The notes under the pieces are model-generated. The model was given only the letters and a program-made list of their open reading frames with translations. It did no database searches and had not been told where the DNA came from. Position numbers and translations under genes: made by a program. Below, one piece after another: positions 26,652 to 45,564 of a stretch of DNA of 64,000 nucleotides. The DNA is taken from NCBI GenBank assembly GCA_003550725.1, contig PUKZ01000097.1:1-64000 (forward strand). The letters run 5' to 3'. The stretch's first letter is position 1, and every line of letters begins with the position of its first letter. Source of the stretch: Bacteroidales bacterium. GTDB taxonomy: Bacteria; Bacteroidota; Bacteroidia; Bacteroidales; UBA7960.

Positions 26652-29600
26652 ATGAAGTTGCAGGAAACAGCAAATAAGAACATATTAATTCTGGATGGCG
26701 GCATGGGAACTATGCTTCAGATGGAAAATTTAGAAGAAGATAAATTTAGAGGAGCTAAGTTTGTTGATCATCCGGTTTCTTTAAAGGGTCTTAATGATTT
26801 ATTGGTAATTACACAACCCGGAATTGTAAAAGATATACATAAGAAATATCTTGATGCCGGGGCTGACATAATAACAGCCAACACCTTTAATGCCAACTAT
26901 TATGGTTTAAAGGATTATGGCATGGAATCTTATGTATATGAAATAAATTTCCAGGCTATTAAAATTGCTAAAGATTTAACTGCACAATACAACAAAAAAA
27001 ATCCGAATAAGCCTCGTTTTGTTGCAGCTACTTTAGGGCCTACCGGAAAAACGGCTTCCATATCACCTGATATTAATAATCCTTCATTCAGAGACGTTAC
27101 TTTTGATGATTTGGTTGAAGCTTACAGGAATCAGGTGCAGGGTATGGTAGATGCCGGGGCAGACATTCTTATGGTAGAAACTGTTTTTGATACATTGAAT
27201 GCAAAAGCTGCCTTGTATGCTATTAATAAAGTACGTTCAGGCTTATCGGTAGAAATACCGGTAATGATATCGGGAACCATTGATGAAAGTGGCCGGAATT
27301 TATCGGGTCAAACTGTTGAAGCGTTTTATAATTCGGTTTTTCCTTTTTCTTTGTTTTCTGTCGGTTTGAATTGTTCTTTCGGTGCTGATAAAATGACTCC
27401 CTATCTTGAAAGGTTAAGTGTAAAATCAGAGGTTTTGGTTAGTGCTCATCCTAATGCAGGTTTTCCCAACGAGTTGGGCGAATATGACCAATCACCAGAG
27501 GAGATGGCCGGCCTTATTGAAACTTTTTGCGAAAACGGATTTGTTAATATTGTTGGTGGATGTTGTGGAAGCATGCCTGAGCATGTTAAAGCCATTTCAA
27601 AAATGGCTTCAAAGTACAGCCCGCGTCAAATTTTTAAACACCCAATAACAACAAGAATCAGTGGTTTACAGTCTTTTGGTGTAAAAGATAGTACCGGGCT
27701 GGTTAAAATAGGAGAGAGGACCAACGTAAATGGCTCAAAAAAATTTGCCAAGCTTATTAGAAACGAAAAATATGAAGAAGCTTTTGAAATAGCCAGAAAT
27801 CAAATCAGGGATGGAGCAGAAATATTAAACATCAATTTAGATGATAGCATGATAGATTCAAAAAAAGTGATGAAAACTTTTTTGAATCAGCTTACTGTTG
27901 AACCTGATATTGTAAATATGCCCATAATGCTAGATTCTTCCGATTTTGATGTTATTGAAAATGGTTTGAAATGTATACAGGGGCGAAGTTTAGTGAACTC
28001 TATCAGTATTAAAGATGGAGAGGAAGATTTTAAGCAAAAAGCCTCCGTTATAAAAGAGTTAGGTGCTGTTGTAGTTGTAATGGCTTTTGATGAGAAAGGG
28101 CAAGCCGAAACTTTTGACAGAAAAATTGAAATTTGTCAGCGTGCATATAAGATATTAATAGAAGAAGTAGGTTTTCAACCCGAAGATATAATATTTGATC
28201 CTAATGTGTTAACTATAGGTACCGGAATAGAAGCTCATAATGATTATGCGGTCGACTTTATTAAATCCGTAAAATGGATAAAGAAGAATTTGCCGCATGC
28301 AAAAGTTAATGCCGGAGTCAGTAATGTTTCTTTTGCTTTTAGGGGGAATGATTATCTGAGAGATGTAATTAACTCTGTATTTCTTCATCATTGTGAAAAA
28401 GCAGGGTTGGATTTTGCTATTGTTAATCCGGCAAAAATTATCGATTATGATAATATTGATAATGAAGTTCGTGAACCGGTTGAAGATTTGGTGCTTAACA
28501 AACGGGCTGATGCCACAGACAGGCTTTTGGATCTAGCTTCCAAAATCATTAATAAGTCAACGCAACAGAAGCATAAGGATAAATGGAGAGAACAATCACC
28601 CGAAGAAAGGATTGTTTATTCATTGTGTAATGGTATAAATAGTTATATTAATGAGGATATTCAGGAGCTAAGGGACAATCAATACAGCTCACTGAATATC
28701 ATACAAGGCCCATTAATGGATGGTATGAACAAAGTAGGTGAGCTTTTTGCTGAGGGCGAGATGTTTTTGCCACAGGTAATAAAAAGTGCCCGAATAATGA
28801 ATAAAGCTGTAGAATTTCTTTCAGGTGATATTGAAAAGGAAGCCAAGGCTACAGCAAAATCTTTAGAACAAAAAAAGAAAGTTCTTTTGGCCACTGTAGA
28901 GGGTGATGTACATGATATTGGTAAAAATATTGTTGCATTGGTGTTAAAATGCAATAATTATGAAGTTATTGATATGGGGGTGATGGTTCCCAATAAAGAA
29001 ATTATAAAAGCAATAGATAATAAAAAACCCGATATACTTGGTTTGAGTGGTTTGATATCTCCTTCACTAGATAAGATGATAGGTATAGTTAAAAGGTTGG
29101 AAGATAAAGGTTGTAAAATACCTGTTTTATTGGGTGGTGCTGCTACTTCAGCCTTACATACCGCTGTAAAAGTTGCTCCCCTTTACAGTGGAGTTGTGGC
29201 TCACGTGCCTAACGCTATGCAAAGTGTTAGCGTGGTGGGTAAAATATTTAGTGATGATGGCAGAGCCGGTATAGAGGAAATTCGCGAGGAGCAAAATAAA
29301 TTAAGAAAAGACTTTCGTAAGAAGAAAACCGCCACAAAATTCTTATCCCTTGAAGATGCGCGTAAAAGAAAATATGTGTTAGAAAGGGAACGCCCTGTAA
29401 AGCCCAGAATGCTTGGAGTTAAGGAGTTTTATGATTTTGACCTGGGAGAATTGAGAAAATATATAGATTGGACTCCATACTTTAATGGGTGGGGATTGAA
29501 AGGTGTTTATCCTTCCATTTTTGAAAAAGAACGAGAGGGAAGGGAAGCCGAAAGATTATTTAAAGAAGCACTGGCAATGCTTGATGATATTCAGCAAAAT

Positions 29601-30317
29601 ACCCTTATTCAGCCTAAAGGTATCATAGGATTATTCCCTGCCAATTCTAAAGGTGATGATGTATTAATATTTAAAGATGAAAGCCGGAGAAAGATTGTTA
29701 TGAGAATACCTATGCTGAGGCAACAGCAATTAAAAGATAATCAAGGGTATGCTTTATCTTTAGCTGATTTTGTAGCGCCGGTTGATTCGGGTATAAAAGA
29801 TTATTTTGGTGGTTTCGCGGTCACAACAGGCCATGGTATCGATAAATACCTGAAAAGGTTTAACGAAAATGGTGATAGCTATAAGAGCATTATGTTTAGG
29901 TTGATTGCTGACAGGCTTGTAGAAGCTGCTGCTGAAGTTATGCATATGTGGGTGAGAAAAAAATACTGGGGATATGTGCCTAATGAAAACTTAAGCCTGC
30001 AAGAGTTAATAAAAGGAAAATATCAGGGTATAAGGCCTGCCGTAGGATATCCTTCATGCCCGGATCACCGGCTTAAAGGATATTTGTTTGATCTTTTAAA
30101 TGTAGAGGAAAGAATAGGAATCTCTCTTACAAGTATTTATGCCATGAAACCCGCAAGCTCAGTAGCTGGTTTTTATATGGCTCATGATGCCTCAAGGTAT
30201 TTCGGTATAGGAAAAATAGGCAAAGACCAGCTTAGTGATTATGCAAAAAGAACAAACAAGGATATAGAAAAAACCAAAGAATGGCTATATTTTGCAATTG
30301 ATAAAAAAAGCGATTAA
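26652..30317 (+). CDS. metH: Cobalamin-dependent methionine synthase
   Basis: MetH transfers the methyl of methyl-tetrahydrofolate through cobalamin to homocysteine, giving methionine. All four modules are present in 1221 residues. The homocysteine domain has zinc ligands in LNCSFG and GGCCGS near residues 238 and 303-304. The pterin domain begins at about 350 (KIGERTNVNGS). The cap and B12 domain have the axial histidine in DVHDIGKN near residue 754. The SAM-binding reactivation domain is at about 890-1221 (RPAVGYPSCPDHR). It opens the one-carbon island and is followed 108 bp later by metF. In the island it would feed methionine to MetK. Confidence 0.97.
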   Translation: MKLQETANKNILILDGGMGTMLQMENLEEDKFRGAKFVDHPVSLKGLNDLLVITQPGIVKDIHKKYLDAGADIITANTFNANYYGLKDYGMESYVYEINFQAIKIAKDLTAQYNKKNPNKPRFVAATLGPTGKTASISPDINNPSFRDVTFDDLVEAYRNQVQGMVDAGADILMVETVFDTLNAKAALYAINKVRSGLSVEIPVMISGTIDESGRNLSGQTVEAFYNSVFPFSLFSVGLNCSFGADKMTPYLERLSVKSEVLVSAHPNAGFPNELGEYDQSPEEMAGLIETFCENGFVNIVGGCCGSMPEHVKAISKMASKYSPRQIFKHPITTRISGLQSFGVKDSTGLVKIGERTNVNGSKKFAKLIRNEKYEEAFEIARNQIRDGAEILNINLDDSMIDSKKVMKTFLNQLTVEPDIVNMPIMLDSSDFDVIENGLKCIQGRSLVNSISIKDGEEDFKQKASVIKELGAVVVVMAFDEKGQAETFDRKIEICQRAYKILIEEVGFQPEDIIFDPNVLTIGTGIEAHNDYAVDFIKSVKWIKKNLPHAKVNAGVSNVSFAFRGNDYLRDVINSVFLHHCEKAGLDFAIVNPAKIIDYDNIDNEVREPVEDLVLNKRADATDRLLDLASKIINKSTQQKHKDKWREQSPEERIVYSLCNGINSYINEDIQELRDNQYSSLNIIQGPLMDGMNKVGELFAEGEMFLPQVIKSARIMNKAVEFLSGDIEKEAKATAKSLEQKKKVLLATVEGDVHDIGKNIVALVLKCNNYEVIDMGVMVPNKEIIKAIDNKKPDILGLSGLISPSLDKMIGIVKRLEDKGCKIPVLLGGAATSALHTAVKVAPLYSGVVAHVPNAMQSVSVVGKIFSDDGRAGIEEIREEQNKLRKDFRKKKTATKFLSLEDARKRKYVLERERPVKPRMLGVKEFYDFDLGELRKYIDWTPYFNGWGLKGVYPSIFEKEREGREAERLFKEALAMLDDIQQNTLIQPKGIIGLFPANSKGDDVLIFKDESRRKIVMRIPMLRQQQLKDNQGYALSLADFVAPVDSGIKDYFGGFAVTTGHGIDKYLKRFNENGDSYKSIMFRLIADRLVEAAAEVMHMWVRKKYWGYVPNENLSLQELIKGKYQGIRPAVGYPSCPDHRLKGYLFDLLNVEERIGISLTSIYAMKPASSVAGFYMAHDASRYFGIGKIGKDQLSDYAKRTNKDIEKTKEWLYFAIDKKSD

Positions 30318-31963: not shown

Positions 31964-32602
31964 ATGGATTTAAGCAAAATTTCAGAAACTTTAATATCAG
32001 GAAAGTCTGATGAATTAAAGAAATTAGTTGAAGAAGCTGTTAACAGTGATGCCAATCCGAGTGATATACTTAATAAGGGGTTATTACCCGGGATGGATGC
32101 TGTAGGCCAGAAATGGAAAGCCGGCGACATGTTTATGCCGGAAGTACTACGTAGTGCAAAAGCTATGAGTAATGCTATGGATTATCTCAGGCCAAAGTTA
32201 AAGGATGATGATTTAGGCAATGCCGGAACAATGGTTATAGGAACTGTAGCAGGTGATTTGCATGATATTGGCAAAGACCTTGCAGCTATGATGTTTGAGG
32301 GAGCAGGTTATAAGGTGATTAATATTGGCATTGACCAGTCTAATGAAAACTTTGTTAATGCGGTAAAAGAACATAAACCCAATTTACTTGGGATGTCAGC
32401 ATTGCTTACTACAACAATGCCCCGTATGGGTGAAGTAATTAACTCTTTGAAAGAGGCAGGTATTCGAGACCAGGTTGCTGTAATTATTGGCGGAGCACCT
32501 GTTACCGAAGAATTTGCAACAGAAATCGGAGCAGATCTTTATGCTCCGAATGCAGGAACAGCTGTTGAAATTACTAAAGAATATCTACAGAAAAAATCAT
32601 AG
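31964..32602 (+). CDS. MtbC/MttC-type corrinoid protein
   Basis: This 212-residue methyl-carrier protein has the two-domain layout of MtaC/MtbC/MttC. A four-helix cap at residues 1-90 contains GLLPGMDAVGQKWKAGDMF. A Rossmann B12 domain follows, with the lower-ligand motif GDLHDIGKD; its His is near residue 99. SALLTTTMPRM and a C-terminal GGAPV segment complete the fold. It should accept a methyl group from an MttB-type enzyme and pass it to the MtrH-type methyltransferase encoded 6 kb downstream, or the reverse. It is the first gene of the methyltransfer block. Confidence 0.93.
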   Translation: MDLSKISETLISGKSDELKKLVEEAVNSDANPSDILNKGLLPGMDAVGQKWKAGDMFMPEVLRSAKAMSNAMDYLRPKLKDDDLGNAGTMVIGTVAGDLHDIGKDLAAMMFEGAGYKVINIGIDQSNENFVNAVKEHKPNLLGMSALLTTTMPRMGEVINSLKEAGIRDQVAVIIGGAPVTEEFATEIGADLYAPNAGTAVEITKEYLQKKS

Positions 32603-32931: not shown

Positions 32932-34386
32932 ATGCAAATGAAAATGAATCAGACTGTTAATAATTCTCCACGATTTCGGGTACTTTCGGAAGATCAAATC
33001 GAGCAGATATATTATTCTGCTTTAGAAGTACTTGAAAGAACAGGGGGGTGTTTTTACCATGATGAAGCCATCGAACTTTTTAAAAACAGCCATGCAGTTG
33101 TAAGGGGCAATAATGTTCGTGTGCCTGCTTATATGGTTGAAGAAGCTTTGAATTTTTATCCCAGGAAGATAACCCTTAAAGGAAGAAACGATACACGTTC
33201 TCTTCATATACAAAAAGATACTGTTGCATTTGGTACAGGTTCAGATTTACCGTTCACGTATGACCGGCAAACAGGAGAAAGGCGCAGAACTGTTTATAAG
33301 GATATAAATAATGCTGCAAAGCTTGTAGATGCTTTATCTAATTATGATTTTTTTATGTCACATGGAATTGTAAGTGATGCTCCTAATCCCCAGACGTATG
33401 ACAGGCATCAATTTATGGCTATGCTTGAACAGTGTACAAAGCCGATGGTTTTGACAAGTGTTGATGGAGAAGGGCTTGAGGATCTTTGGAAAATGGGTTG
33501 TTTGATTCAGGGAGGTGAAGAAGAATTTAAACTTAACCCTTTATTTGTAGCATATATAGAGCCTATTTCACCGCTTAAAAATGACCGAACTGCTGTAGAA
33601 AAACTTTTGTTTGCTGCCGAGAAAAAATTACCTGCAATGTATACTCCATGTCCCAGCTCAGGAGCTACTGCTCCGGCAACAATTGCCGGTATGTTGGTTC
33701 AATCACTGGCCGAAACACTATTGGCGACAGTATTATGCCACCTTAAAAATCCCGGCACACCTTTGATTATGGGAGGAGTAACTACATTGCTTGATATGAA
33801 AAAATCAACCTACTCTTACGGTGCACCCGAACTCTCACTCGCATCAGCTGCTAATACCGATATATCCAAATGGATTAATCTTCCGATGTTTTCTACCGGG
33901 GGATGTACTGATTCTAAAATTATTGATGAGCAGGCAGCAGCTGAACAAATGATGAATTTGTTTTATGCCTACCTCTCAGGTGCAAATTTGGTGCACGATG
34001 TTGGTTATATTGACCATGGAACCAATGCTTCACTTGAAAGTTTGGTGTTAAACGAAGAAATGATGGGAATGGTTAAACAATTCGGCAAAGGTATTAACAC
34101 TGACGATGATCATATGGCTCTTGACTTGATTGAAAAAGTCGGGCCGGGTGGAGAATACGTAACCTCCGACCATACCTTTGATCATTGGAGAGAATGGTTT
34201 TTACCACAACTGCAAGATAGAAGTGATTACGAGACCTGGAAAAATAGTGGCTCTAAAACAATGCTTGACCGAGTAAAAGAAAGAACTGACTATTTACTTG
34301 AAAACCACAAACCTGAGCCTATGGATGAAAAACTTGAAAAAGAATTGAAGGAAATTATCAGCAGCGCTGATAAAAGACATTCGTAA
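32932..34386 (+). CDS. MttB-family (non-pyrrolysine) corrinoid methyltransferase, copy 1
   Basis: This 484-residue member of the trimethylamine methyltransferase superfamily would move a methyl group from a methylated amine to the corrinoid protein encoded upstream. The frame has no internal TAG, so it lacks pyrrolysine. After the conserved GGCTDSK (about residue 323) the sequence reads IIDEQAA; I believe Gln occupies the position used by pyrrolysine in archaeal MttB. Related non-pyrrolysine proteins such as MtgB demethylate glycine betaine, and others act on other quaternary amines, so the substrate is not fixed. Other landmarks are GTGSDLPF, YIEPISPL and YSYGAPE. It forms a block with the next MttB-like gene. 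Confidence 0.9.
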   Translation: MQMKMNQTVNNSPRFRVLSEDQIEQIYYSALEVLERTGGCFYHDEAIELFKNSHAVVRGNNVRVPAYMVEEALNFYPRKITLKGRNDTRSLHIQKDTVAFGTGSDLPFTYDRQTGERRRTVYKDINNAAKLVDALSNYDFFMSHGIVSDAPNPQTYDRHQFMAMLEQCTKPMVLTSVDGEGLEDLWKMGCLIQGGEEEFKLNPLFVAYIEPISPLKNDRTAVEKLLFAAEKKLPAMYTPCPSSGATAPATIAGMLVQSLAETLLATVLCHLKNPGTPLIMGGVTTLLDMKKSTYSYGAPELSLASAANTDISKWINLPMFSTGGCTDSKIIDEQAAAEQMMNLFYAYLSGANLVHDVGYIDHGTNASLESLVLNEEMMGMVKQFGKGINTDDDHMALDLIEKVGPGGEYVTSDHTFDHWREWFLPQLQDRSDYETWKNSGSKTMLDRVKERTDYLLENHKPEPMDEKLEKELKEIISSADKRHS

Positions 34387-34454: not shown

Positions 34455-35933
34455 ATGATTAGCAGAACAAATTACACAATACAACAAAGTCCTCATTTTG
34501 AATTATTATCTGAAAACCAGAAGGAAAAGATATTCAACGGTATGATGCGTACCCTGCAATATACCGGAGCACATGTTCATCATGAAGGTGCAAGGGAGCT
34601 TTTTAAAAAAGCAGGATGCAAGGTTGACGGTATAACAGTTTATTTTCCGCCGGAAGTTATATTGAATGCATTATCTACTGTACCTCCGGTCACCGAAATA
34701 TTTCCATGGGATGGCGATGAATCGAAAAAAATTATTATTGAAAAGAAAAGAAGTTATTTTGGTCCGGGGCCTACCCCTCCAAATTTCATTGATACTGATA
34801 CACTTGAGCGAAGGAAGTATTTGCGAAAGGATGCATCTTTGGTAGCAAGGGTTTGTGATGCTTTACCCAATATTGGTTATGTGCAGTCGCTGGGTTCTAT
34901 TAGTGATGTTACCAATGGGTTGGCAGATATTTATGAGTTTGCTGATATGATTCGCAACACTACGACCCCGATCATGAGCTGGTCTTTTACACGTGATGGT
35001 TGTCATGATATTCACCGTGTAGGTATAGCTATGGCCGGTGGAGAAGAAGAATTTAAGCAAAGGCCAAATTACGTCTTTTATGGCGAGCCTATATCACCAC
35101 TGGTTAGCGATTTTCATGCAATTGACAAATGTATGTACTGTGCCGAACATAGAATTCCGCAAGTATACAGCCCGTGTGCTATTGGAGGAGGAACAGTGCC
35201 GGCATCTCATGCAGGGCAGATTGTTGTTGCCCTTTCTGAATCAATGGTTGGGGTTATCGCTGCTCAGCTTATTAACCCCGGAACATGTGTAATTATCGGT
35301 GGCGTACAGTCAATACTCGACATGAAATGTTCTATATATTCATACGGTGCTCCGGAACTTAGCTTGTTAAGTGCTGCTTTAACTGAAATGGTGCATTATT
35401 GCAATTTGCCCATGTATTCGACTGCCGGTTGTACCGACACAAAAAAAATGGATATCCAATCTGCTTTGGAAGCAAGTCTCTCAATAAATGCTGCAATGAT
35501 GAGTGGTGCTAACTTTGTGCATGACTGTGGCTACACTGAATCGGGTTTAACCGGTGATATCTTCCAGACAGTTATGGATGATGAAATTATTGGAATGGCT
35601 CGTATAATAGAGAAAGGTGTTGAAGTTAATGAGGAAACCCTTGCTGTCGATCAAATTGCTAATGTTGGCCCCGGTGGGCATTATCTTTATGAAGATCACA
35701 CAATGAAGCATTTTAGAAATCACTGGATGCCCACATTAATGGATAGAAACAGCTATGAAGACTGGAATCAGCAAGGAAGTAAGACCATGAAAGAAAGAAT
35801 ATTGGAAAAAACAAGAGATTTGATTGAAAACTATGAAGGGCCCCGGGAAAAAGTTCCACAGAAGGCTGATAAGGAAATAGAAAAAATTCTCGAAGAGGCT
35901 GAAAAAAGAGAAGCAAGTAAAAATGATAAATAA
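34455..35933 (+). CDS. MttB-family (non-pyrrolysine) corrinoid methyltransferase, copy 2
   Basis: This second MttB-like protein has 492 residues and begins 68 bp after the first. It shares the landmarks YGEPISPL, YSYGAPE and AGCTDTK, but the two are clearly divergent paralogues and not a recent duplication. The post-motif stretch KMDIQSALE again has Gln at the likely pyrrolysine position, and no TAG interrupts the frame. Two MttB-like proteins served by one corrinoid protein suggest either two substrates or a heteromeric enzyme; this is an inference. The C-terminal tail is rich in Lys and Glu. Confidence 0.9.
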   Translation: MISRTNYTIQQSPHFELLSENQKEKIFNGMMRTLQYTGAHVHHEGARELFKKAGCKVDGITVYFPPEVILNALSTVPPVTEIFPWDGDESKKIIIEKKRSYFGPGPTPPNFIDTDTLERRKYLRKDASLVARVCDALPNIGYVQSLGSISDVTNGLADIYEFADMIRNTTTPIMSWSFTRDGCHDIHRVGIAMAGGEEEFKQRPNYVFYGEPISPLVSDFHAIDKCMYCAEHRIPQVYSPCAIGGGTVPASHAGQIVVALSESMVGVIAAQLINPGTCVIIGGVQSILDMKCSIYSYGAPELSLLSAALTEMVHYCNLPMYSTAGCTDTKKMDIQSALEASLSINAAMMSGANFVHDCGYTESGLTGDIFQTVMDDEIIGMARIIEKGVEVNEETLAVDQIANVGPGGHYLYEDHTMKHFRNHWMPTLMDRNSYEDWNQQGSKTMKERILEKTRDLIENYEGPREKVPQKADKEIEKILEEAEKREASKNDK

Positions 35934-36023: not shown

Positions 36024-38030
36024 ATGAACCGATACATCATAGGCATAAATACTGGTGGCACCTATACTGATGGGGTATTACTGGATTATGTTTCCAGGAA
36101 GGTTGTTTCTGCTGCTAAATCGGTTACAACGAGGCAGGATCTGAAAATTGGTGTTATAAAGGTTCTTAAAAAGCTGAATATTAAAAATAATTTCAATATA
36201 AAACTTGTGGGAATTTCCAGTACATTGGCAACAAATACTGTAGCCGAGGGCAAGGCCCGGAAAGTAGGGCTTTTGCTTATTGGTTATGATAAAGAATTGA
36301 TTGAAAAATATGATTTATCAAGTAAAATCCCTGCCGAAATCACAGGATATTTTAAGGGAGGTCATAATGCTCAGGGTGCAAAGCTTGCAGCCCTGGATAA
36401 GAAGGGTGTAAAAAAGTGGGTAATTGAAAATCAGGACAATATAGATGCTATTGCTGTATCGGGTTATTTTAGCCCATTAAATCCTGAGCATGAAGAGGCT
36501 GCTTTTAAAATTATTAAAGAAAACTCTTCTTTACCTGTAGTGATGGCGCATCAGTTGTCAACAAAGCTTGATTCGATTAAAAGGGCTTCAACAGCCTCCA
36601 TTAATGCATCTTTGGTAGCAGTAATGCAGGATTTCATTCAAGCCGTGAGCTTCTCATTGTCAGAGTTGAATGTTAAAGCGCCCCTGATGATTGTGCGTGG
36701 TGATGGAACATTAATGCCCTCTTCAGAGGCTGAAAGTAAACCTGTTGAAACAGTATTATCAGGCCCTGCTGCAAGTGCTATTGGCGGAAGATTTCTTTCC
36801 GGTAACGGAAATGTTCTTGTTGTAGATATAGGAAGTACTACTACCGATATGGCATTGGTAAATAATTCAAGGGTAGTGGTCACAGAAGATGGTGCCAGGG
36901 TGGGAAAGTGTGAAACTGCTGTTGAAGCTGCAAAAATTAGAACTATTAGCCTGGGATGTGACAGCAGGATTCATTATAACGAAAAAAATGAACTGAAGCT
37001 TGGACCTGACAGGGTAAGGCCATTATCACATATTGCATTACATCACGACAATGTGTTGAACGATTTTCATAAGATGCAAAAATCAACCACCCTGGGGCGA
37101 GATCCTAACGATATTGAGTATTGGTATATGCATGACCCCCTCGATGAAAATACTTATGAGTCTTTAACCGATAAGCAGAAAAAAGTTATTGATCTTATTC
37201 AAAAACCTAAAAGGCTTTCCGGGCTGTTAAAGAGAGTAGGGGTGTATCATGTCGGGCATCTAAATTTAGATGATCTGATAAGCCAGGGAAAAATTGAATG
37301 TGCTGCTCTTACCCCGACAGATTTATTACATGTCGAACGAAGCTTAAACCTTTGGGACAGGGAAGTAGCAAAAATTGCCCTCGATTATTATTGCAGAATA
37401 TATGGCAAAACACCAAGAAATTTTATTGATGAGGTATTTAGTAAAATTATTAATATTTTGGTAGAAGAGATAATTATTTTTCTTGCATGTCAAAATATTG
37501 ATCCCAAGGAAATGCCTGTTTCGGTTGATGGTGAATGGGGTAAGTGGATGTTGCAGCAAATATTGCATAGCGATAATCACTTTTTATCAATTGATGCAGA
37601 TAGCCGTTACCCTGTTGTTGGAGCCGGATCACCGGCTAAACATTTTCTTAAAAGAGCAGCAAGGATTGTGAATGCAAAATTTATTTTACCCGAATTTTTT
37701 GACGTGGCTAACGCCGTGGGAGCTGTATCAGGCTCAATTTCAGAAATCAGAGAGGCTATCGTATTTGTCCGCGACAGTAAAGGGCAATATTCATATATAG
37801 CCAAGCATGAAGGCCGAATCAAAGCTTTTAAAGAGTATGAGGATTGTTGTGAATATGCTGAACAAACAGCTAGAAAACTTGCAAGAGAGGCTGCAATTAA
37901 ATCGGGAGCTACTGATTGTTTTGTTGAAGTTGAAAGAAGGGTGGAAGGATCACTTTTAAGATTTATTGCTCGAGCTATTGGTAATCCAAAATTATCAGAA
38001 AGAGATAAAAATGATAAAGTTAAGATTTAA
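36024..38030 (+). CDS. Hydantoinase/oxoprolinase-family ASKHA protein
   Basis: This 668-residue protein of the HyuA/oxoprolinase family has an ASKHA ATPase fold. The first phosphate loop is INTGGTYTDG at residues 9-18 and the second is VDIGSTTTDMALV near residue 268. ISSTLATNTVAEG is the family hallmark. Oxoprolinases hydrolyse cyclic amides with ATP, but in methyltransfer clusters ASKHA proteins such as RamA reductively activate corrinoids. This protein lacks RamA's ferredoxin-type cysteine motifs, so it is not RamA. Its place between MttB-like and MtrH-like genes suggests a role in substrate processing or corrinoid activation, which is unproven. Confidence 0.8.
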   Translation: MNRYIIGINTGGTYTDGVLLDYVSRKVVSAAKSVTTRQDLKIGVIKVLKKLNIKNNFNIKLVGISSTLATNTVAEGKARKVGLLLIGYDKELIEKYDLSSKIPAEITGYFKGGHNAQGAKLAALDKKGVKKWVIENQDNIDAIAVSGYFSPLNPEHEEAAFKIIKENSSLPVVMAHQLSTKLDSIKRASTASINASLVAVMQDFIQAVSFSLSELNVKAPLMIVRGDGTLMPSSEAESKPVETVLSGPAASAIGGRFLSGNGNVLVVDIGSTTTDMALVNNSRVVVTEDGARVGKCETAVEAAKIRTISLGCDSRIHYNEKNELKLGPDRVRPLSHIALHHDNVLNDFHKMQKSTTLGRDPNDIEYWYMHDPLDENTYESLTDKQKKVIDLIQKPKRLSGLLKRVGVYHVGHLNLDDLISQGKIECAALTPTDLLHVERSLNLWDREVAKIALDYYCRIYGKTPRNFIDEVFSKIINILVEEIIIFLACQNIDPKEMPVSVDGEWGKWMLQQILHSDNHFLSIDADSRYPVVGAGSPAKHFLKRAARIVNAKFILPEFFDVANAVGAVSGSISEIREAIVFVRDSKGQYSYIAKHEGRIKAFKEYEDCCEYAEQTARKLAREAAIKSGATDCFVEVERRVEGSLLRFIARAIGNPKLSERDKNDKVKI

Positions 38031-38105: not shown

Positions 38106-38768
38106 ATGAATACAATAATTGCTTGTGAAAGTATAAAGCCTGAACTTGAACATGTTAAAGGTAATACAAAGGATGTGAAAATAAAATATCTTTCACAAAA
38201 TTATCATCGTAACCCCGGAAAGCTAAAAAAAGCTCTCCAGGCTGCTATTGATAAAATAAAACCCGGTGATGGCAAACTGATCCTTGGGTTCGGTTTATGT
38301 TCTAATGCTGTTGTTGATATAAAGGCTCCTACACAGGGATTATATGTTCCATGTGTTCATGATTGTATTACCTTATACCTGGGAAGTCGTGATAAATACA
38401 AGCAATTATTTATGAAGTATCCGGGTACTTATTATTTAACAAAGAGCTGGATAGGTAATAAAAAAGATCCACTCGGAACCATGAGAAATGAATACACAAA
38501 AAGGGTTGGCAGGAAGATGGCTGAAGAAACTATGCAGCGGGAGATCAAAAATTATAAATATATAAGCTTTATCAATACTGCGGGAAAAGATGAAAAGAAA
38601 TGTTTGCAAAGAGCTAAAGAAAATGCTCTCTATTTCAATAAAGAATTTATAGAATATAAAGCTAATGATGATTATTTTAGGAAAATAGTGTTTGGACCTC
38701 ATAAAGAGCCGGATTTTATTTATATTAAACCCAACGAAAAAATTACACAAAAAGAATTTTTTAAATAG
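38106..38768 (+). CDS. DUF1638 family protein
   Basis: This 220-residue protein matches DUF1638 by its opening IIACESIKPEL, the internal GFGLCSNAVV and the CVHDCITLYLGSR segment. Its cysteines (about residues 6, 63, 78 and 82) could bind a metal or cluster. As I recall, DUF1638 genes recur beside corrinoid methyltransferase genes in methanogens and anaerobic bacteria, but their function is unknown. It ends 12 bp before the MtrH-like gene, implying translational coupling or at least a shared transcript. A chaperone or accessory role in methyl transfer is a guess. Confidence 0.75.
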   Translation: MNTIIACESIKPELEHVKGNTKDVKIKYLSQNYHRNPGKLKKALQAAIDKIKPGDGKLILGFGLCSNAVVDIKAPTQGLYVPCVHDCITLYLGSRDKYKQLFMKYPGTYYLTKSWIGNKKDPLGTMRNEYTKRVGRKMAEETMQREIKNYKYISFINTAGKDEKKCLQRAKENALYFNKEFIEYKANDDYFRKIVFGPHKEPDFIYIKPNEKITQKEFFK

Positions 38769-38780: not shown

Positions 38781-39581
38781 ATGCAAATTGTTGGTGAATT
38801 GATTAACGCCAGTAGAAAAAAAGTTAGGGAAGACATTAAGGAAAAGAACAAAGAAAAGATTGCTGACCTTGCAAAAGAGCAACACGAAGCCGGAGCCGAT
38901 TTTATAGATGTTAATGCCGGAACCTTTGTTGGCAAAGAAGAAGAATATGTAAAATGGTTGGTGCAAACAGTGCAGGAAAAAGTTGATACACCCTGCTGTA
39001 TTGACTCACCCGATCCTAAAGTTGTTGAAGAAGCGGTGAAAGTACACAAAGGTGTACCTATGGTAAACTCCATATCACTCGAATCAGATCGTTATAACAA
39101 CCTGATACCTGTTATCAGAGGCACTGACATGAAAATTATCGCTCTTTGCATGAGCGATGAAGGTATGCCATATACTAAAGATGATAGAATGAAAATTGCC
39201 GATAAGCTTGTTAATGGATTGTTAAGCAATAATATAGATATTAAAAATATATATGTCGATCCATTAGTACAACCTATAGGTTCGGGAGATAACCTTGGTA
39301 TGGAATTTTTGAATTCAATTGAAGCCATACATAAAGAATTTGAAGGTATAAATACTATATGTGGTCTTTCCAATATATCTTTCGGAATACCGAAAAGAAA
39401 ATTTGCCAATCAAACTTTCATGATAATGGCAATTACTAAAGGTTTAAATTCTGCAATATTAAACCCACTCGATAAAAAGATGATGGCTAATATTGTTGCA
39501 GCAGAAATGCTTGCCGGAAAAGACCAGTTTTGCGGTAAATATATGGATGCATATAGAAATGGGTTGTTTGAAGTAGAATAA
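38781..39581 (+). CDS. Methyl-tetrahydrofolate:corrinoid methyltransferase (MtrH/AcsE/MtgA type)
   Basis: This 266-residue TIM-barrel pterin-binding protein is close in length to AcsE (about 262). The fold begins IVGELINASRKKV, has GADFIDVNAGTF near residue 40, the pterin-site Asp in CCIDSPDPK near residue 75, NSISLES near residue 96, the DPLVQPIG loop near residue 155, and ICGLSNISFGIPKR near residue 193. Enzymes of this family move a methyl between tetrahydrofolate and a corrinoid protein. With the corrinoid and MttB-like proteins it completes a three-component methyltransferase, comparable to the MtgABC glycine-betaine system of Desulfitobacterium. The direction cannot be read from sequence. 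Confidence 0.9.
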   Translation: MQIVGELINASRKKVREDIKEKNKEKIADLAKEQHEAGADFIDVNAGTFVGKEEEYVKWLVQTVQEKVDTPCCIDSPDPKVVEEAVKVHKGVPMVNSISLESDRYNNLIPVIRGTDMKIIALCMSDEGMPYTKDDRMKIADKLVNGLLSNNIDIKNIYVDPLVQPIGSGDNLGMEFLNSIEAIHKEFEGINTICGLSNISFGIPKRKFANQTFMIMAITKGLNSAILNPLDKKMMANIVAAEMLAGKDQFCGKYMDAYRNGLFEVE

Positions 39582-39712: not shown

Positions 39713-40546
39713 ATGAGCAAAAAATATTCAAATGATATAGAAGTTGCAAGGAATTATTATAACAGTTCTGATGCCCACACTTTTTATTATATGATATGGG
39801 GAGGGGAAGACCTTCATCTGGGCATTTATAATTCGGAAGATGAAGACATATACCGGGCTAGCCGCAGAGCTGTTGATCGTATAGCTTCTTATTTTGAAAA
39901 AATTGATCAAAACACAAAAATTATCGATTTTGGTGGTGGATTTGCTGGTTCAGCCAGGCATCTTGCAAAAAAATATGGTTGTCATGTTACTGTAATTAAC
40001 CTAAGCGAAACCGAAAACAAACGTGGCCGGAAAATGAATGAAGAACAAGGCCTTAGCCATTTAATTGATATTATTGATGGTAGTTATGATGATGTGCCTT
40101 TTGAAGATGAAACTTTTGATATTGTATTCTCCGAAGATGCTATACTACACAGTAATAATAAAGAAAAAGTTATTAGTGAAGCCTATCGGCTACTTAAACC
40201 TAATGGAGATTTTGTTTTTTCCGACCCAATGCAAACCGATAATTGCGACGAAAAGGTTTTAAAACCCATTTATGAAAGAATAAACCTTTCATCATTGGGA
40301 TCACCTGCATTTTATAAGGAAAAATGCAAACAGGCCGGGTTTAAAGAAATCAATTTTGAAGAGTTGGATAAACATTTGGCAATTCATTATTCACGAATTC
40401 TTGCGGAAACAGAGAAAAAGCAGAAAGAACTTGAAAAATATGTTTCAAAAGAATATATAGAGAATATGAAAAAAGGATTGAGACACTGGATAAAAGGAGG
40501 TGAAGAAAATAATTTGACCTGGGGGATTTTTCATTTTAAAAAATAG
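39713..40546 (+). CDS. Sarcosine/dimethylglycine N-methyltransferase-like (betaine synthesis)
   Basis: This 277-residue class I SAM methyltransferase closely follows the dimethylglycine/sarcosine N-methyltransferases of halophilic bacteria and cyanobacteria. Landmarks recalled from those enzymes are YMIWGGEDLHLGIYN, IYRASRRAV, the SAM site DFGGGFAGSARHLAKKYG near residue 67, SEDAILHSN near residue 140, FSDPMQTDNC near residue 167 and HYSRILAE near residue 225. Such enzymes methylate sarcosine and dimethylglycine to glycine betaine. In this island it would be a SAM consumer linked to the SAM-recycling genes next door. The partner glycine-methylating enzyme is not in the window. Confidence 0.82.
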   Translation: MSKKYSNDIEVARNYYNSSDAHTFYYMIWGGEDLHLGIYNSEDEDIYRASRRAVDRIASYFEKIDQNTKIIDFGGGFAGSARHLAKKYGCHVTVINLSETENKRGRKMNEEQGLSHLIDIIDGSYDDVPFEDETFDIVFSEDAILHSNNKEKVISEAYRLLKPNGDFVFSDPMQTDNCDEKVLKPIYERINLSSLGSPAFYKEKCKQAGFKEINFEELDKHLAIHYSRILAETEKKQKELEKYVSKEYIENMKKGLRHWIKGGEENNLTWGIFHFKK

Positions 40547-40725
40547 CAGTTAATTTTTTATATGGATGTTTTTCAAAATGGTTTATTTGGAAGTTTTGAA
40601 AATTTGTTTTTAATTGTCTGTTTTTGATATTAAGTTTTTTTTATCAGTATATAATATATCGAGATTAACTTTAAAAATTATAAATAACTATTTATTAAAA
40701 TAATAACATAAAATTATATAATATC

Positions 40726-42150
40726 ATGAATAATTTAGAAAAGATTGATGAGAATATTAATTATCGGGTAAAAGATATTAATCTTGCCGAGTTAGGCCGA
40801 AATGACATACGTTTGGCCGAACATGAGATGCCCGGATTGGTTGAATTAAGAAAGAGGTATGGTAAGGAGCAGCCGTTAAAGGGAGCTCGAATAATGGGGT
40901 CATTGCATATGACTACCCAAACTGCTGTGCTTATTGAAACATTGACGGCTCTTGGTGCTGATGTTCGTTGGGCAAGTTGTAATATTTTTTCAACACAAGA
41001 TGAAGCAGCAGCAGCAATTGCCAAAACCGGTGTTCCTGTTTTTGCATGGAAGGGGGAAACTCTTGATGAATACTGGTGGTGTACTGCACAGGCTTTAACT
41101 TTTCCCGGTGGTAAAGGACCCGATTTGATTGTTGATGATGGTGGAGATGCTACTTTGATGGTCCTACTTGGTCATCAGGCTGAAAAAGATCCTTCAATTC
41201 TTGAAAAAAACGCCGAAGCATGGGATGAAATAGCATTGCTAAAAAGACTAAAGTCTCTGCAACAACAGGATAAAGATAAGTGGCACAGGATGGTAGAAGA
41301 CATTCAGGGTGTATCGGAAGAAACAACTACCGGTGTGCACAGGCTTTATCAAAGAGAAAAGGAAGGAACTCTTCCATTTCCCGCTATTAATGTTAATGAC
41401 TCTGTTACGAAATCAAAGTTTGATAATAACTATGGAAACAGGGAGTCGTTGATTGACGGTATAAAAAGAGCTACTGATGTGATGATAGCAGGAAAAACAG
41501 CTGTAGTATGTGGTTATGGCGGTGTTGGCAAAGGATGTGCACAAGGTTTAGCCGGTTTTGGAGCTAAAGTTATCATTACAGAAGTAGATCCTATATGTGC
41601 TCTGCAAGCCGCTATGGAAGGATATGAAGTGAGAACCGTAGAAGAAATTCTCGATAGAGGCGATATTTACGTTACAGCTACAGGTAATAAAGATGTTATT
41701 ACTGTGGATCATATGAGTAAAATGAAAGATAAAGCCATAGTGTGCAATATCGTGCATTTTGATAATGAGATACAACTTGAAAAACTTGAAGAAAGAAAAG
41801 ACGTCAAAAAAATAAATATTAAACCACAGGTTGACGAATATGTATTTCCGGATGGACATTCAATAATAATGCTTGCAGAAGGAAGATTAGTGAACCTGGG
41901 TTGTGCTACAGGACATTCTTCATTTGTGATGAGTAATTCATTTGCAAACCAGGTGCTTGCACAAATAGATCTTTGGAAAACCGACCGTAAACCCGGTGTT
42001 TACATGTTGCCAAAAAAACTTGATGAAGAAGTTGCCCTGGCTCACTTGAAACATCTTAATATTAGTCTTTCCAAAATGACTAAAGAACAAGCCGATTACC
42101 TGGGTGTGCCTGTAGATGGACCGTATAAAACTGAACATTACAGGTATTAA
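40726..42150 (+). CDS. ahcY: S-adenosylhomocysteinase
   Basis: This 474-residue NAD-dependent enzyme splits S-adenosylhomocysteine into adenosine and homocysteine, removing the product inhibitor of SAM methyltransferases. [17 protein letters not shown] near residue 58 is the substrate site. The Rossmann NAD motif is [13 protein letters not shown] near residue 263. [10 protein letters not shown] and the C-terminal KTEHYRY are family hallmarks. It lies between the SDMT-like gene and metK in the same direction, so the local genes encode use, hydrolysis and resynthesis of SAM. Confidence 0.97.
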
Positions 42151-42346
42151 AAATAATATTTTTTAATGCATGTTTGCTTATAATATTTAAGTATTTGTTT
42201 TTAGATTTCAAATATTTGAAAGCTAAAATTGTTTTAGACCTTTTAAATATTGTCAAACCTTTCTTAAAACATTTATATTATTGGCAGACATTATAAAATA
42301 ATAAACATAAGAAAATCATAAATTATAAATTATAAAATAATAAATT

Positions 42347-43618
42347 ATGCCTTATTTATTTACTTCAGAATCAGTATCGGAAGGACATCCCGATAAAATT
42401 GCTGATCAAATATCAGATGCTGTATTGGATGAATTGTTAAAGGATGATCCTGACGCTAAATGTGCAGCCGAAACTTTTGTAACTACCGGACTTTGCCTGG
42501 TAGGAGGAGAAATTAGAACCACTACTTATGTGGAAGTGCAGGATCTTGCACGTGAAGTTATAAGAAGAATTGGTTATACCAAGCCTGATTATCGTTTTGA
42601 TGCCGATTCCTGCGGTGTTCTTACAGCTATCCACGAACAATCTCCTGATATATTCAAAGGTGTGGATAGAGAAATACAGGAGGAGCAAGGAGCCGGCGAC
42701 CAGGGAATGATGTTCGGCTTCGCTACAAACCAAACAGAAAACTATATGCCCTTGCCCCTGGATATCTCTCACCGCATATTAAAAGAACTGGCTTCAATAC
42801 GAAAAGTTGGAGGTGATATGCCATATCTCAGACCCGACTCTAAAGCACAGGTTACTTTTAAATATGATGATGACGACACGCCAATAGGTATTGATACAAT
42901 AGTTGTTTCAACACAACATGATGATTTCATTAAGCCCACTGGAGTGGGAGAAAAAGCCCAGGATAAGGCCGACAGGGATATGCTTGGTAAAATTGAAACT
43001 GATGTTGAAAACATACTCATCCCCAGGGTAAAAGCAACTTATCCGGCTGAAATTCAAAAGTTTTTTGATGTAAAGTATAAGTTGTTTGTTAACCCTACAG
43101 GTAAATTCGTTGTTGGAGGTCCTCATGGTGATACCGGATTAACCGGAAGAAAAATTATCGTCGATACTTATGGTGGATTTGGCCGTCATGGTGGTGGTGC
43201 TTTTTCCGGAAAAGATGCATCAAAAGTTGACCGCTCAGCAGCCTATGCAGCAAGACATATTGCTAAAAATATGGTTGCAGCCGGCATAGCCGATGAAGTT
43301 GAAATACAGCTAGCCTACGCCATTGGAGTTGCTGACCCTGTAGGCTTATTCGTTTCTACTAAAAGACCAAAAGTAAAACTAACAAACGAAGAAATAGCCG
43401 AAAAGATAAATAAATTGTTTGATCTTCGTCCAAGTGCTATTATAAAAAGATTTGGCTTAAAAAATCCAATTTTTCAGGAAACAGCTGCTTACGGACATAT
43501 GGGCAGGAAACCGGGTAAAAAAGTTGTATATGTTAATGGTAATAAAAAAGAAGTAGAAACATTTACCTGGGAAAAGCTGGATTATGTTGATAAAATAAAG
43601 CAAGAGTTTAATTTGTAA
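42347..43618 (+). CDS. metK: S-adenosylmethionine synthetase
   Basis: MetK makes SAM from methionine and ATP. At 423 residues it is slightly longer than the E. coli enzyme (384). Conserved motifs are [21 protein letters not shown] (ATP site, residues 4-24), [12 protein letters not shown] near residue 115, [13 protein letters not shown] near residue 258 and [18 protein letters not shown] near residue 275. It follows ahcY by 196 bp. No SAM riboswitch was recognised in that gap. Confidence 0.97.
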
Positions 43619-43638
43619 ATTAATAACGGGTGAATTAC

Positions 43639-43670
43639 TAACGGGTAACGAGTTTACACGTTACCCGTTA
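43639..43670. repeat. Perfect 12-bp hairpin between metK and the kinase gene
   Basis: Arms taacgggtaacg (43639-43650) and cgttacccgtta (43659-43670) enclose an 8-base loop. The downstream tract is cccaaaat and not a T-run, so it is not a canonical terminator. It may stabilise an mRNA end or attenuate the operon. Confidence 0.6.
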
Positions 43671-43691
43671 TCCCAAAATAATTATTAATAT

Positions 43692-44660
43692 ATGGATAAA
43701 GTATTAGGTATAGGTAATGCACTTATTGATACTATGGTGCGTCTTGATAATGATGATTTTCTCAAAGAGGTAAATCTGCCAAAGGGAAGTATGCAATTGG
43801 TTGATAGCGACGAGAGTAAAAAAATTGCAAAAAAGTGTGAAGGTTTTAAAAAATCAAAATCAAGCGGAGGTTCTGCCGCTAATACGATTCATGGGCTTGC
43901 CAGGCTTGGTGTTAGTGTAGGGTATATTGGTAAAGTTGGAAAAGATGAACTGGGTGATTTTTTCATTAATGATCTTAAAAAAAGCCGGATAAGGCCTAAT
44001 ATATTATATGGAAATAGTAATAGCGGCCATGCTTTGGCTCTTATATCACCTGACTCCGAAAGGACTTTTGCTACTCATTTAGGTGCAGCCCTTGAACTAA
44101 GCGCTGATGATCTTAAAAATGAATTTTTTGAAGATTACGATTTTTTGCATATAGAAGGGTATCTTCTTCAAAATCATAGCCTTATGCAAAAAGCCCTTGA
44201 AATGGCCAAAAATAATGGCCTGAAAATATCACTTGACCTTGCCAGCTTTAACGTTGTTGAAGATAATCTTGATGTATTAACTGAATGGGTTGAAAATTAT
44301 GTTGATATATTATTTGCTAATGAAGAAGAAGCAAAGGCTTTTACAGGTAAAGAACCTGAAGAAGCACTTCATGAATTAGCTGAAAAATCTGAAATAGCTG
44401 TTGTAAAAATAGGTAAGCATGGTTCATTGATAAAAAAAGGTGAAGATGTATTTAAAATAGAACCTATAAAAGTGAATGCTACAGACACAACCGGTGCAGG
44501 CGATGCATATGCAGCCGGCTTCCTGTTTGGGCTGGTAAAAGGCTATAACCTTGAAAAATGTGGTGAAATTGCTTCCATATTGGCAGGAAAGGTTATTGAA
44601 GGTACGGGAGCCAAGATGAATGAAGAAAAGTGGAAAGAGGTTTATGAGATTATTGGTTGA
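43692..44660 (+). CDS. PfkB-family carbohydrate kinase, probable adenosine kinase
   Basis: This 322-residue PfkB-type kinase has the N-terminal GNALIDTMVR, the GGSAANT segment near residue 59 and the C-terminal ATP/anion-hole motif DTTGAGDAYAAGF with the catalytic Asp near residue 260. Sequence alone allows adenosine, ribose or fructokinase activity. The position right after ahcY and metK supports adenosine kinase, which would convert the adenosine released from SAH to AMP and pull that reaction forward. Confidence 0.75.
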   Translation: MDKVLGIGNALIDTMVRLDNDDFLKEVNLPKGSMQLVDSDESKKIAKKCEGFKKSKSSGGSAANTIHGLARLGVSVGYIGKVGKDELGDFFINDLKKSRIRPNILYGNSNSGHALALISPDSERTFATHLGAALELSADDLKNEFFEDYDFLHIEGYLLQNHSLMQKALEMAKNNGLKISLDLASFNVVEDNLDVLTEWVENYVDILFANEEEAKAFTGKEPEEALHELAEKSEIAVVKIGKHGSLIKKGEDVFKIEPIKVNATDTTGAGDAYAAGFLFGLVKGYNLEKCGEIASILAGKVIEGTGAKMNEEKWKEVYEIIG

Positions 44661-44751: not shown

Positions 44752-45564
44752 ATGAACTTTCGTATATACTTAGCTTTTTTCTTATTATTTATTACAACTT
44801 CCGGTTATACCACCAAAAATATCAATGTTGTATCCCTGTCTCCATCACTTACCAAAATGATATATTTGCTTGAAAGCCAGGATAATCTTGTGGGTTGTAC
44901 TGAGTTTTGCGATATACCCGAAGAGGATGAAAAAAATATCGTGGCTTCACAAATGAATGTTAACGTAGAAAAAATCCTTTCCATTTCACCCGATTTAGTT
45001 ATTACAACTAAATTAACCTCTGCCCGGTATATTGAGACCTTAAAGAAAACCGGTGTAAATACCAGAGTTTTAGGTACTCCCGAATCTTTTGTAGAACTGT
45101 GTGACCAATTTATTAAAATAGGCAAGCTTATCGGGAAAGAAGATTTAGCCGTTTCTATAATAGAACAGCAAAAATCCAGACTGGCAAGGCTGCAACAAAA
45201 AATTCCGGATAACGATAATCCTGAGATATTTATGCAGCTTGGTGTTAAGCCTTTGTTTACTGTTATTCCGGGTACTTTTATGAATGATTATATAAATCTT
45301 TCTGGTGGAGTTAATATTGCCTCCGACTTGACAAAGGGTACAATAACCCGTGAAACGGTTTTAACCAGAGACCCTGATGTTATAATTATAGTCTTGATGG
45401 GCATGGTTGGTGAAGAAGAAAAACAAAACTGGAAAAGTTATTCCGGCCTTAGAGCTGCTGAAAAAGATAAAATATTCATGATCGATGAGGATAAAGCCTG
45501 TAGCCCAACACCTGTGACTTTCGTTGATACTGTGGAGGAGATAATTGACCTTATGTATAATTAG
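44752..45564 (+). CDS. btuF: Periplasmic substrate-binding protein of a B12/metal-chelate ABC importer
   Basis: This 270-residue protein starts with a signal peptide (residues 1-20) with no lipobox cysteine. It continues VVSLSPSLTKMIYLLESQDNLVGCTEFCDIP, typical of BtuF/FecB-type binding proteins. The Glu-rich ends that dock on the permease are present. It is followed by permease and ATPase genes in one direction. The ligand could be cobalamin or a siderophore. The location inside a B12-dependent island makes cobalamin the better guess. No cobalamin riboswitch was seen in the 91-bp gap upstream. Confidence 0.72.
   Translation: MNFRIYLAFFLLFITTSGYTTKNINVVSLSPSLTKMIYLLESQDNLVGCTEFCDIPEEDEKNIVASQMNVNVEKILSISPDLVITTKLTSARYIETLKKTGVNTRVLGTPESFVELCDQFIKIGKLIGKEDLAVSIIEQQKSRLARLQQKIPDNDNPEIFMQLGVKPLFTVIPGTFMNDYINLSGGVNIASDLTKGTITRETVLTRDPDVIIIVLMGMVGEEEKQNWKSYSGLRAAEKDKIFMIDEDKACSPTPVTFVDTVEEIIDLMYN

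Follow-up and report, generated by a model that had tools for sequence, protein, structure and literature searches.

We analyzed a stretch of 64,000 nucleotides (contig PUKZ01000097.1 of assembly GCA_003550725.1; here called the window) from a Bacteroidales bacterium, in which 15 named genes, all on the + strand, form a block from 26652 to 47483. In the middle of this block lies an open reading frame (ORF) for an ASKHA protein, which the original prediction had assigned to the oxoprolinase family and had proposed either as a substitute for RamA, the ATP-dependent reductive activator of corrinoid methyltransferases, or as a hydrolase of an amide or hydantoin precursor. The assignment was borne out, since the ORF runs exactly from 36024 to 38030 on the + strand, carries Hydant_A_N and Hydantoinase_A domains, and has the neighbors implied by that prediction. 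We found the protein to recur in a fixed order with an MttB family methyltransferase and a DUF1638 protein, and we give an even chance to the reading that the ASKHA and DUF1638 proteins together form an ATP-driven unit that activates or maintains the corrinoid protein of the operon. The genes of the block are as follows.

26652-30317, + strand: MetH, full-length B12-dependent methionine synthase including the activation domain PF02965
30426-31352, + strand: methylenetetrahydrofolate reductase (MTHFR)
31964-32602, + strand: stand-alone corrinoid protein, MtgC-like, 212 amino acids (aa)
32932-34386, + strand: MttB1, MttB family protein with no in-frame amber codon; closest solved chain 9yce (glycine betaine methyltransferase), tied with 2qne
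34455-35933, + strand: MttB2, second MttB family protein with no in-frame amber codon
36024-38030, + strand: ASKHA protein of the HyuA/oxoprolinase fold, 668 aa, without a HyuB partner; C312, C426, and C609 invariant in the Bacteroidota clade
38106-38768, + strand: DUF1638 protein, 220 aa; C7, C65, and C87 invariant
38781-39581, + strand: MeTr, methyltetrahydrofolate:corrinoid protein methyltransferase (PRK07535)
39713-40546, + strand: sarcosine/dimethylglycine N-methyltransferase-like protein
40726-42150, + strand: S-adenosylhomocysteine hydrolase
42347-43618, + strand: S-adenosylmethionine synthetase MetK
43692-44660, + strand: PfkB-family kinase, putatively an adenosine/nucleoside kinase
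44752-45564, 45660-46673, and 46677-47483, + strand: BtuF-BtuC-BtuD-like (B12-type) ABC transporter

The product of 36024-38030 is a HyuA-fold ASKHA protein and no member of the RamA/RACo family. In Pfam, residues 6 to 166 matched Hydant_A_N (E value of 4.4e-28) and residues 187 to 331 matched Hydantoinase_A (4.9e-29), both above cut-off, the latter match covering only positions 1 to 147 of the 291 in the profile. The best NCBIfam match, caprolactamase subunit alpha, reached 80.4 bits, far under its cut-off of 1000, and a profile search of the PDB gave six sequences, every one of the HyuA type and confined to the first half of the protein (residues 3 to 330). The AlphaFold2 model was poor (mean predicted local distance difference test score [pLDDT] of 58), so we claim no geometry for its cysteines. 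Compared with the PDB, this model ranked six HyuA-type chains first (6yra, with a Z score of 15.1 and a root mean square deviation [rmsd] of 19.8 over 363 aligned residues), which does no more than fit a HyuA-type architecture, and the 50 matches listed included no chain of RamA/RACo or HgdC. The RamA domain PF14574 (RACo_C_ter) was matched by none of the eight ASKHA members scanned, at E values up to 1, which places the protein outside the RamA/RACo family; PF17651 was likewise without a match in the members.

Three motifs can be read in the sequence, which we take to be phosphate-1 (GINTGGTYTD), phosphate-2 (DIGSTTTD), and an adenosine-type motif (GAGSPAKHFL...VANAVGAV). The first Asp of phosphate-1 is replaced by Asn in 5 of 13 full ASKHA sequences (the window, L001, L002, L003, and L008) and kept in the remaining 8. 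The families of other ASKHA activators and reactivases gave weaker signals. BcrAD_BadFG (PF01869) was weakly matched by three of the eight members (best E value of 0.0023). HgdC/BcrAD-type activators have two cluster cysteines, to which C312 and C426 might correspond; a profile-profile alignment with the HgdC type anchored only the phosphate-1 and adenosine regions and did not place the cysteines. Cysteines C312, C426, and C609 were invariant in all 14 Bacteroidota-type sequences, one of which is a fragment. Solitary ASKHA relatives were also seen in Alphaproteobacteria (L023, L024, and L025), beside selenium, biotin, or unrelated genes; they were drawn from 20 plasmid records with at least 80% query coverage at one place, among 632 with any match. 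No relative was found in the viral contigs searched.

In order to follow the locus in other genomes, three sources were used. A scan of genome contigs provided eight ASKHA loci. Among 247 sampled genomes of the order, 13 matched the ASKHA profile, of which 7 were full length (the window's own plus 6), while the other 6 were partial, generic HyuA-type matches of at most 91.7 bits and were not counted as ASKHA. One of these 6 full-length cases, G442, shares its ASKHA with L006 across 600 residues from the start and was not counted again. Among 395 sampled genomes of the phylum there were 64 matches, and the window's own was the sole full-length one (1316.7 bits), the other 63 being partial (131.5 bits at most). 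In this way, 14 ASKHA genomes were counted: G000, G395 to G402 (corresponding to L001 to L008), G530, G518, G550, G453, and G560.

The arrangement was strikingly constant across these genomes. In all 13 genomes readable on the upstream side (L007 is cut), the gene directly before ASKHA was MttB2; on the downstream side, again in all 13 readable genomes (G560 is cut), the gene directly after it was DUF1638. The order MttB-ASKHA-DUF1638 thus held in all 12 genomes with both sides readable, a recurrence in relatives that is far beyond chance. The reading frames of ASKHA and DUF1638 overlap in 7 of 13 cases, counting from ATG starts, and those of MttB2 and ASKHA in 2 of 13. Identity to the window proteins was 50 to 74% for ASKHA and 46 to 69% for DUF1638, lower than the 75 to 92% of MttB1 and MttB2, indicating faster evolution of ASKHA and DUF1638 than of the catalytic proteins. 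Along similar lines, within the order sample, DUF1638 was found in 15 genomes, among them all 7 with full-length ASKHA (Fisher P of 6e-10, not corrected for relatedness). The co-occurrence of ASKHA with MttB and DUF1638, raised as a test in the original prediction, was therefore observed on both sides of the gene. The same operon was present in L008, which comes from a metagenome-assembled genome labeled Balneolales but has a DUF1638 nested among Bacteroidales sequences; this placement may be due either to horizontal transfer or to a binning error. The window DUF1638 had no match in plasmids.

RamA was likewise not found beyond the window: a search of the whole 3.02-Mb assembly, which is 89% complete, yielded no PF14574 match, and the domain was absent from 12 of the 14 ASKHA genomes. 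RamA was found in 15 of the 247 genomes of the order. RamA adjoins DUF1638 in G014 and G409: G014 has, in order, a corrinoid protein (46% identical to that of the window), a homocysteine methyltransferase, DUF1638, and RamA, and G409 has a corrinoid protein, MtaB, RamA, and DUF1638. In G531, which has no DUF1638, ca. 4 kb separate RamA from MeTr and from an MtgC-like corrinoid protein (44% identical). In a tree of 26 DUF1638 rows, a starred branch (97/94) separated the 13 ASKHA-linked and the 2 RamA-linked sequences from the remaining 11. The ASKHA-linked rows formed one group (86/92), with the RamA-linked DUF1638 of G014 nearest to it (95/88); both RamA-linked rows are long branches, and their exact place is thus unsure. 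Because the ASKHA-adjacent DUF1638 proteins group with the two RamA-linked ones, the tree suggests that ASKHA occupies the slot of RamA beside DUF1638.

All 26 DUF1638 rows kept the three cysteines (C7, C65, and C87 in the window). The AlphaFold2 model was good (pLDDT of 86.8); in it, C7 closes the strand 2-7, C65 lies four residues past the strand 58-61, and C87 starts the helix 87-92. Its structure search gave no clear relative (best Z score of 7.1, rmsd of 3.0, 105 aligned), and a sequence search of the PDB gave no match (best E value of 0.24). Seven of the 11 other DUF1638 rows had been labeled as linked to histidine kinases. Pfam confirmed the kinase beside DUF1638 in G564, G566, G596, G014 (second locus), and G243, plus the unlabeled G490; the labeled rows G419, whose contig ends there, and G630 lay outside the Pfam scan. 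At the loci L087, L089, L090, L091, L094, and L095, DUF1638 adjoins a histidine kinase identified by Pfam, with a corrinoid-domain match nearby in five of the six (not in L090), and in L089 a URO-D protein was confirmed as well. Together, these Bacteroidota loci look like a corrinoid-linked sensor operon. According to the accessible part of PMC5764234, DUF1638 has been tied genetically to B12-dependent methionine synthesis since 2018, without a mechanism, and methionine rescues Phaeobacter inhibens that is mutated in either DUF1638 or the RamA-like gene.

The block contains an MtgBCA-type set, that is, a non-pyrrolysine MttB, an MtgC-like corrinoid protein (232.9 bits with the MtgC model NF047996, under its cut-off of 370), and a methyltetrahydrofolate methyltransferase. 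The nearest solved chains of MttB1 and MttB2, 9yce and 2qne, serve as a substrate lead only. We infer that the corrinoid protein would accept methyl groups from betaine-type substrates via MttB1 and MttB2 and pass them to tetrahydrofolate via MeTr; in relatives whose MetH lacks a B12 domain, it would probably give methyl groups to homocysteine too. Its cobalt would occasionally be oxidized to Co(II). ASKHA, in contact with the corrinoid protein, would then open or remodel the latter by binding and hydrolyzing ATP, and DUF1638, with its three strictly kept cysteines, would supply a thiol or metal-cluster site for electron transfer, a function for which RamA/RACo has its own ferredoxin domain. 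In its strongest form, the proposal is that the ATP-driven reductive activases of corrinoid proteins include a second class of separate evolutionary origin, a HyuA-fold ASKHA plus a DUF1638 in which the electron site lies (the three invariant cysteines, which may bind a metal cluster); this we put forward tentatively and regard as somewhat improbable.

Several results weigh against the activator reading. RamA is co-present with ASKHA in G399 and G518, on contigs other than that of ASKHA; the RamA contig of G399 holds a homocysteine methyltransferase-like ORF, and no further block gene was found near RamA in G518. Within the order sample, ASKHA and RamA occurred together in 1 of 247 genomes (P of 0.36, relatedness not corrected), showing no depletion of RamA in ASKHA genomes, and DUF1638 and RamA occurred together in 2 (P of 0.23, again uncorrected), showing no association. 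DUF1638 was absent from 13 of the 15 RamA genomes of the order and hence is not an obligate partner of RamA, and it also lies beside histidine kinases, with neither ASKHA nor RamA adjacent. With RamA missing from 232 of the 247 genomes, its absence is by itself weak evidence, and we rejected it as proof of a substitute. None of the eight ASKHA members matched a ferredoxin-type family (Fer2/Fer4) in Pfam, in contrast to RamA proteins, which carry Fer2 in L093 and Fer4 in L085. The three alphaproteobacterial full-length homologues (32 to 33% identity) lack C312, C426, and C609, and their plasmid surroundings had no annotated corrinoid genes within 10 kb.

Two genomes of the phylum sample, G172 and G267 (each 99% complete), encode MttB together with an MtgC-like corrinoid protein (43 to 45% identical), and G172 encodes a homocysteine methyltransferase as well; no RamA, DUF1638, or full-length ASKHA was found in either (G267 gave a partial HyuA-type match of 83.8 bits). 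An MttB search of 28 genomes (14 with RamA and 7 with DUF1638 from the order, 4 from the phylum, and 3 from the window's own family) was positive in 3, all with RamA and none with a block of the window type around it. “Candidatus Formimonas warabiya” DCMF, whose cluster is compared below, holds and expresses homologues of mecG and mecH, likely reactivation proteins, according to the accessible part of PMC9768040. Finally, the MetH-type activation domain PF02965 was found in 13 of the 14 ASKHA genomes, in some of them in a protein without a B12 domain of its own that could do the job of an activator. Lacking one of their own, these proteins depend on a separate corrinoid protein, and some genomes would thus have an activator besides ASKHA. 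Thus, of the claim that a substitute activator fills the place of RamA, the lack of a detectable RamA, the linkage to DUF1638 and MttB, and the RamA-like slot (G014 and G409) stood, while the existence of a gap that must be filled was not supported as stated, given PF02965, G172 and G267, and the general rarity of RamA in the order.

These PF02965 proteins lead to a rival explanation, in which the MetH domain activates the corrinoid protein in trans and ASKHA and DUF1638 have another role, for example, in assembly or regulation. This domain acts with S-adenosylmethionine plus flavodoxin, and MetK is encoded inside the block. Two relatives have a MetH that lacks the tetrahydrofolate- and B12-binding domains and consists of the homocysteine methyltransferase and PF02965 only (L079, 2959-5046, + strand, 695 aa; L081, 13372-15510, − strand, 712 aa). 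In L008, the corrinoid protein is preceded by a stand-alone activation-domain protein, and an ORF of 441 aa before the latter had no Pfam match. The short MetH, having no B12 domain, would need to borrow a separate corrinoid protein; the simplest candidate is that of the operon, which on our analysis probably serves both demethylation and methionine synthesis in some ASKHA genomes; the stand-alone domain of L008 needs a separate corrinoid protein as well. The short MetH was the sole PF02965 protein found in G550 (L081), while G530 (L079) has a second one of 983 aa, and G402 (L008) has just two such frames, of 361 and 346 aa. However, 7 of the 14 genomes (G000, G395, G397, G399, G400, G453, and G518) have a PF02965 frame of full MetH size (>1200 aa), in which the activation domain serves its own B12 domain, and the strict linkage of ASKHA, DUF1638, and MttB is left unexplained. 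Moreover, Sinorhizobium meliloti, as described in the accessible part of PMC5764234, has such a MetH yet keeps RamA-like and DUF1638 proteins. On balance, we consider this explanation unlikely.

The ASKHA protein might instead use ATP to release damaged corrinoid while the BtuFCD-like transporter imports a fresh one, with no electrons moved. Reactivases of this superfamily serve other B12 enzymes (DdrA, EutA, and GlmL). No Fe-S family was matched in ASKHA, and its weak third Pfam match in eight of eight members, at E values up to 1 (best, 1.4e-6), was MutL, to which the B12-mutase accessory protein GlmL belongs. The Asn in phosphate-1 in 5 of 13 sequences would be more in keeping with a slow nucleotide switch than with a metabolic kinase, and BtuF/C/D-like genes follow in the window, L003, and L008 (BtuF in L007 too). 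Against such a cofactor exchange, the window's match to PF13941 (GlmL/MutL) is a local stretch of 25.6 bits, under the curated cut-off of 27; EutA and diol dehydratase reactivase families were absent among the 14 families listed up to an E value of 1; and the tie to RamA-linked DUF1638 points to redox reactivation. We judge it to be about as improbable as activation in trans by MetH. Less probable still, and in our view very unlikely, is a part in substrate processing, where ASKHA would phosphorylate or hydrolyze an amide, lactam, or hydantoin precursor and so free the methylated amine, the second function offered by the original prediction. The N-terminal half is that of a hydantoinase/oxoprolinase alpha subunit by sequence and fold, but hydrolysis needs a HyuB partner, fused or separate. 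HyuB (PF02538) was found in 0 of 14 ASKHA genomes, whereas the same search gave matches in 6 of 14 control genomes, and no HyuB domain was found among the scanned block genes. This absence disfavors amide or hydantoin hydrolysis and weakens the hydrolase or kinase reading, as do the match to only half of the Hydantoinase_A profile and the position of the gene between those for methyltransferases and DUF1638.

Other observations concern the remainder of the block. The genes for the N-methyltransferase, S-adenosylhomocysteine hydrolase, MetK, and PfkB kinase (39713-44660) share it with two betaine-demethylase-like MttB genes, and methyl groups could move from one osmolyte to another or cycle with salinity. 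At 33904-34003, within MttB1, the PYLIS_3 model (mttB pyrrolysine insertion) scored 35.9 bits against a gathering threshold of 38, though the ORF has no amber codon. No riboswitch was among the two Rfam matches with E values up to 1 in positions 20000 to 56000 of the window. The same genome carries a third MttB gene away from the block (G000:C17:103018-104406, L084), with no ASKHA, DUF1638, or corrinoid-protein match within ca. 10 kb, and the plasmid neighborhoods of MttB in Halomicrococcus and Alisedimentitalea had no annotated hydantoinase, DUF1638, or RamA.

These findings bear on how stand-alone corrinoid proteins stay as Co(I) in organisms without RamA. If true, the proposed activase would keep a single corrinoid protein working in betaine demethylation, and in methionine synthesis as well where MetH has lost its B12 domain. 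It would also suggest a function for the hydantoinase-like protein of a Bacillota glycine betaine cluster, listed there as unknown, and provide a marker gene for betaine turnover by Bacteroidota. Given that DUF1638 adjoins either of two ASKHA ATPase families, its role is directly testable.

Among known systems, RamA/RACo (AcsV) is also an ASKHA ATPase and adjoins DUF1638 and a corrinoid protein in the Bacteroidota G014 and G409, but it belongs to a different ASKHA family, as the window protein has no PF14574 or PF17651 and no ferredoxin domain. HyuA-type subunits (caprolactamase alpha 6yra, N-methylhydantoinase, and acetone/acetophenone carboxylase) resemble it in sequence over residues 3 to 329 and in fold, and differ from it in the lack of HyuB in the genomes, the divergent C-terminal half, and the corrinoid-methyltransferase context. 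The MtgBCDE, RamA, and DUF1638 systems of Ruegeria pomeroyi and P. inhibens, as far as the accessible parts of PMC12478193 and PMC5764234 describe them, share DUF1638 and a corrinoid hub between betaine demethylation, tetrahydrofolate, and methionine, the MtgC of R. pomeroyi serving both demethylation and methionine synthesis (PMC12478193); there RamA is present, whereas the window has a HyuA-fold ASKHA and added genes of the S-adenosylmethionine cycle and an N-methyltransferase. In Methanosarcina acetivorans, the predicted hydantoinases MA4395 and MA4396 are close to the corrinoid methyltransferase genes mtaCB2 (accessible part of PMC11619418), a likeness of gene context only, with two hydantoinase genes in a methanol system.

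The closest parallel comes from “Ca. Formimonas warabiya” DCMF and its glycine betaine cluster. There, Table 2 of PMC9768040 places, between MtgB (488 aa) and MtgA (265 aa), a protein of 668 aa to which it assigns no function and whose abundance was greater by 7.2 log2 units on glycine betaine than on dichloromethane. By elimination, this protein is the hydantoinase-like member of the cluster, Ga0180325_114738. The cluster resembles the window in the 668-aa protein, the gene order, and the MtgC and MtgB upstream, a likeness of length, name, and order only, and its nine genes, as given in the accessible part of the source, differ by a second MtgC and by having no DUF1638, MetH, S-adenosylhomocysteine hydrolase, or MetK. 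Syntenic clusters are said there to exist in Sporomusa ovata and “Ca. Frackibacter.” The literature searched gave no function for the hydantoinase-like gene. The presence of a hydantoinase-like protein in a Bacillota glycine betaine cluster and its induction are thus already published, while what is new here is the pairing with DUF1638, the evidence for the RamA slot, the search for HyuB, and the connection to MetH proteins that have no B12 domain.

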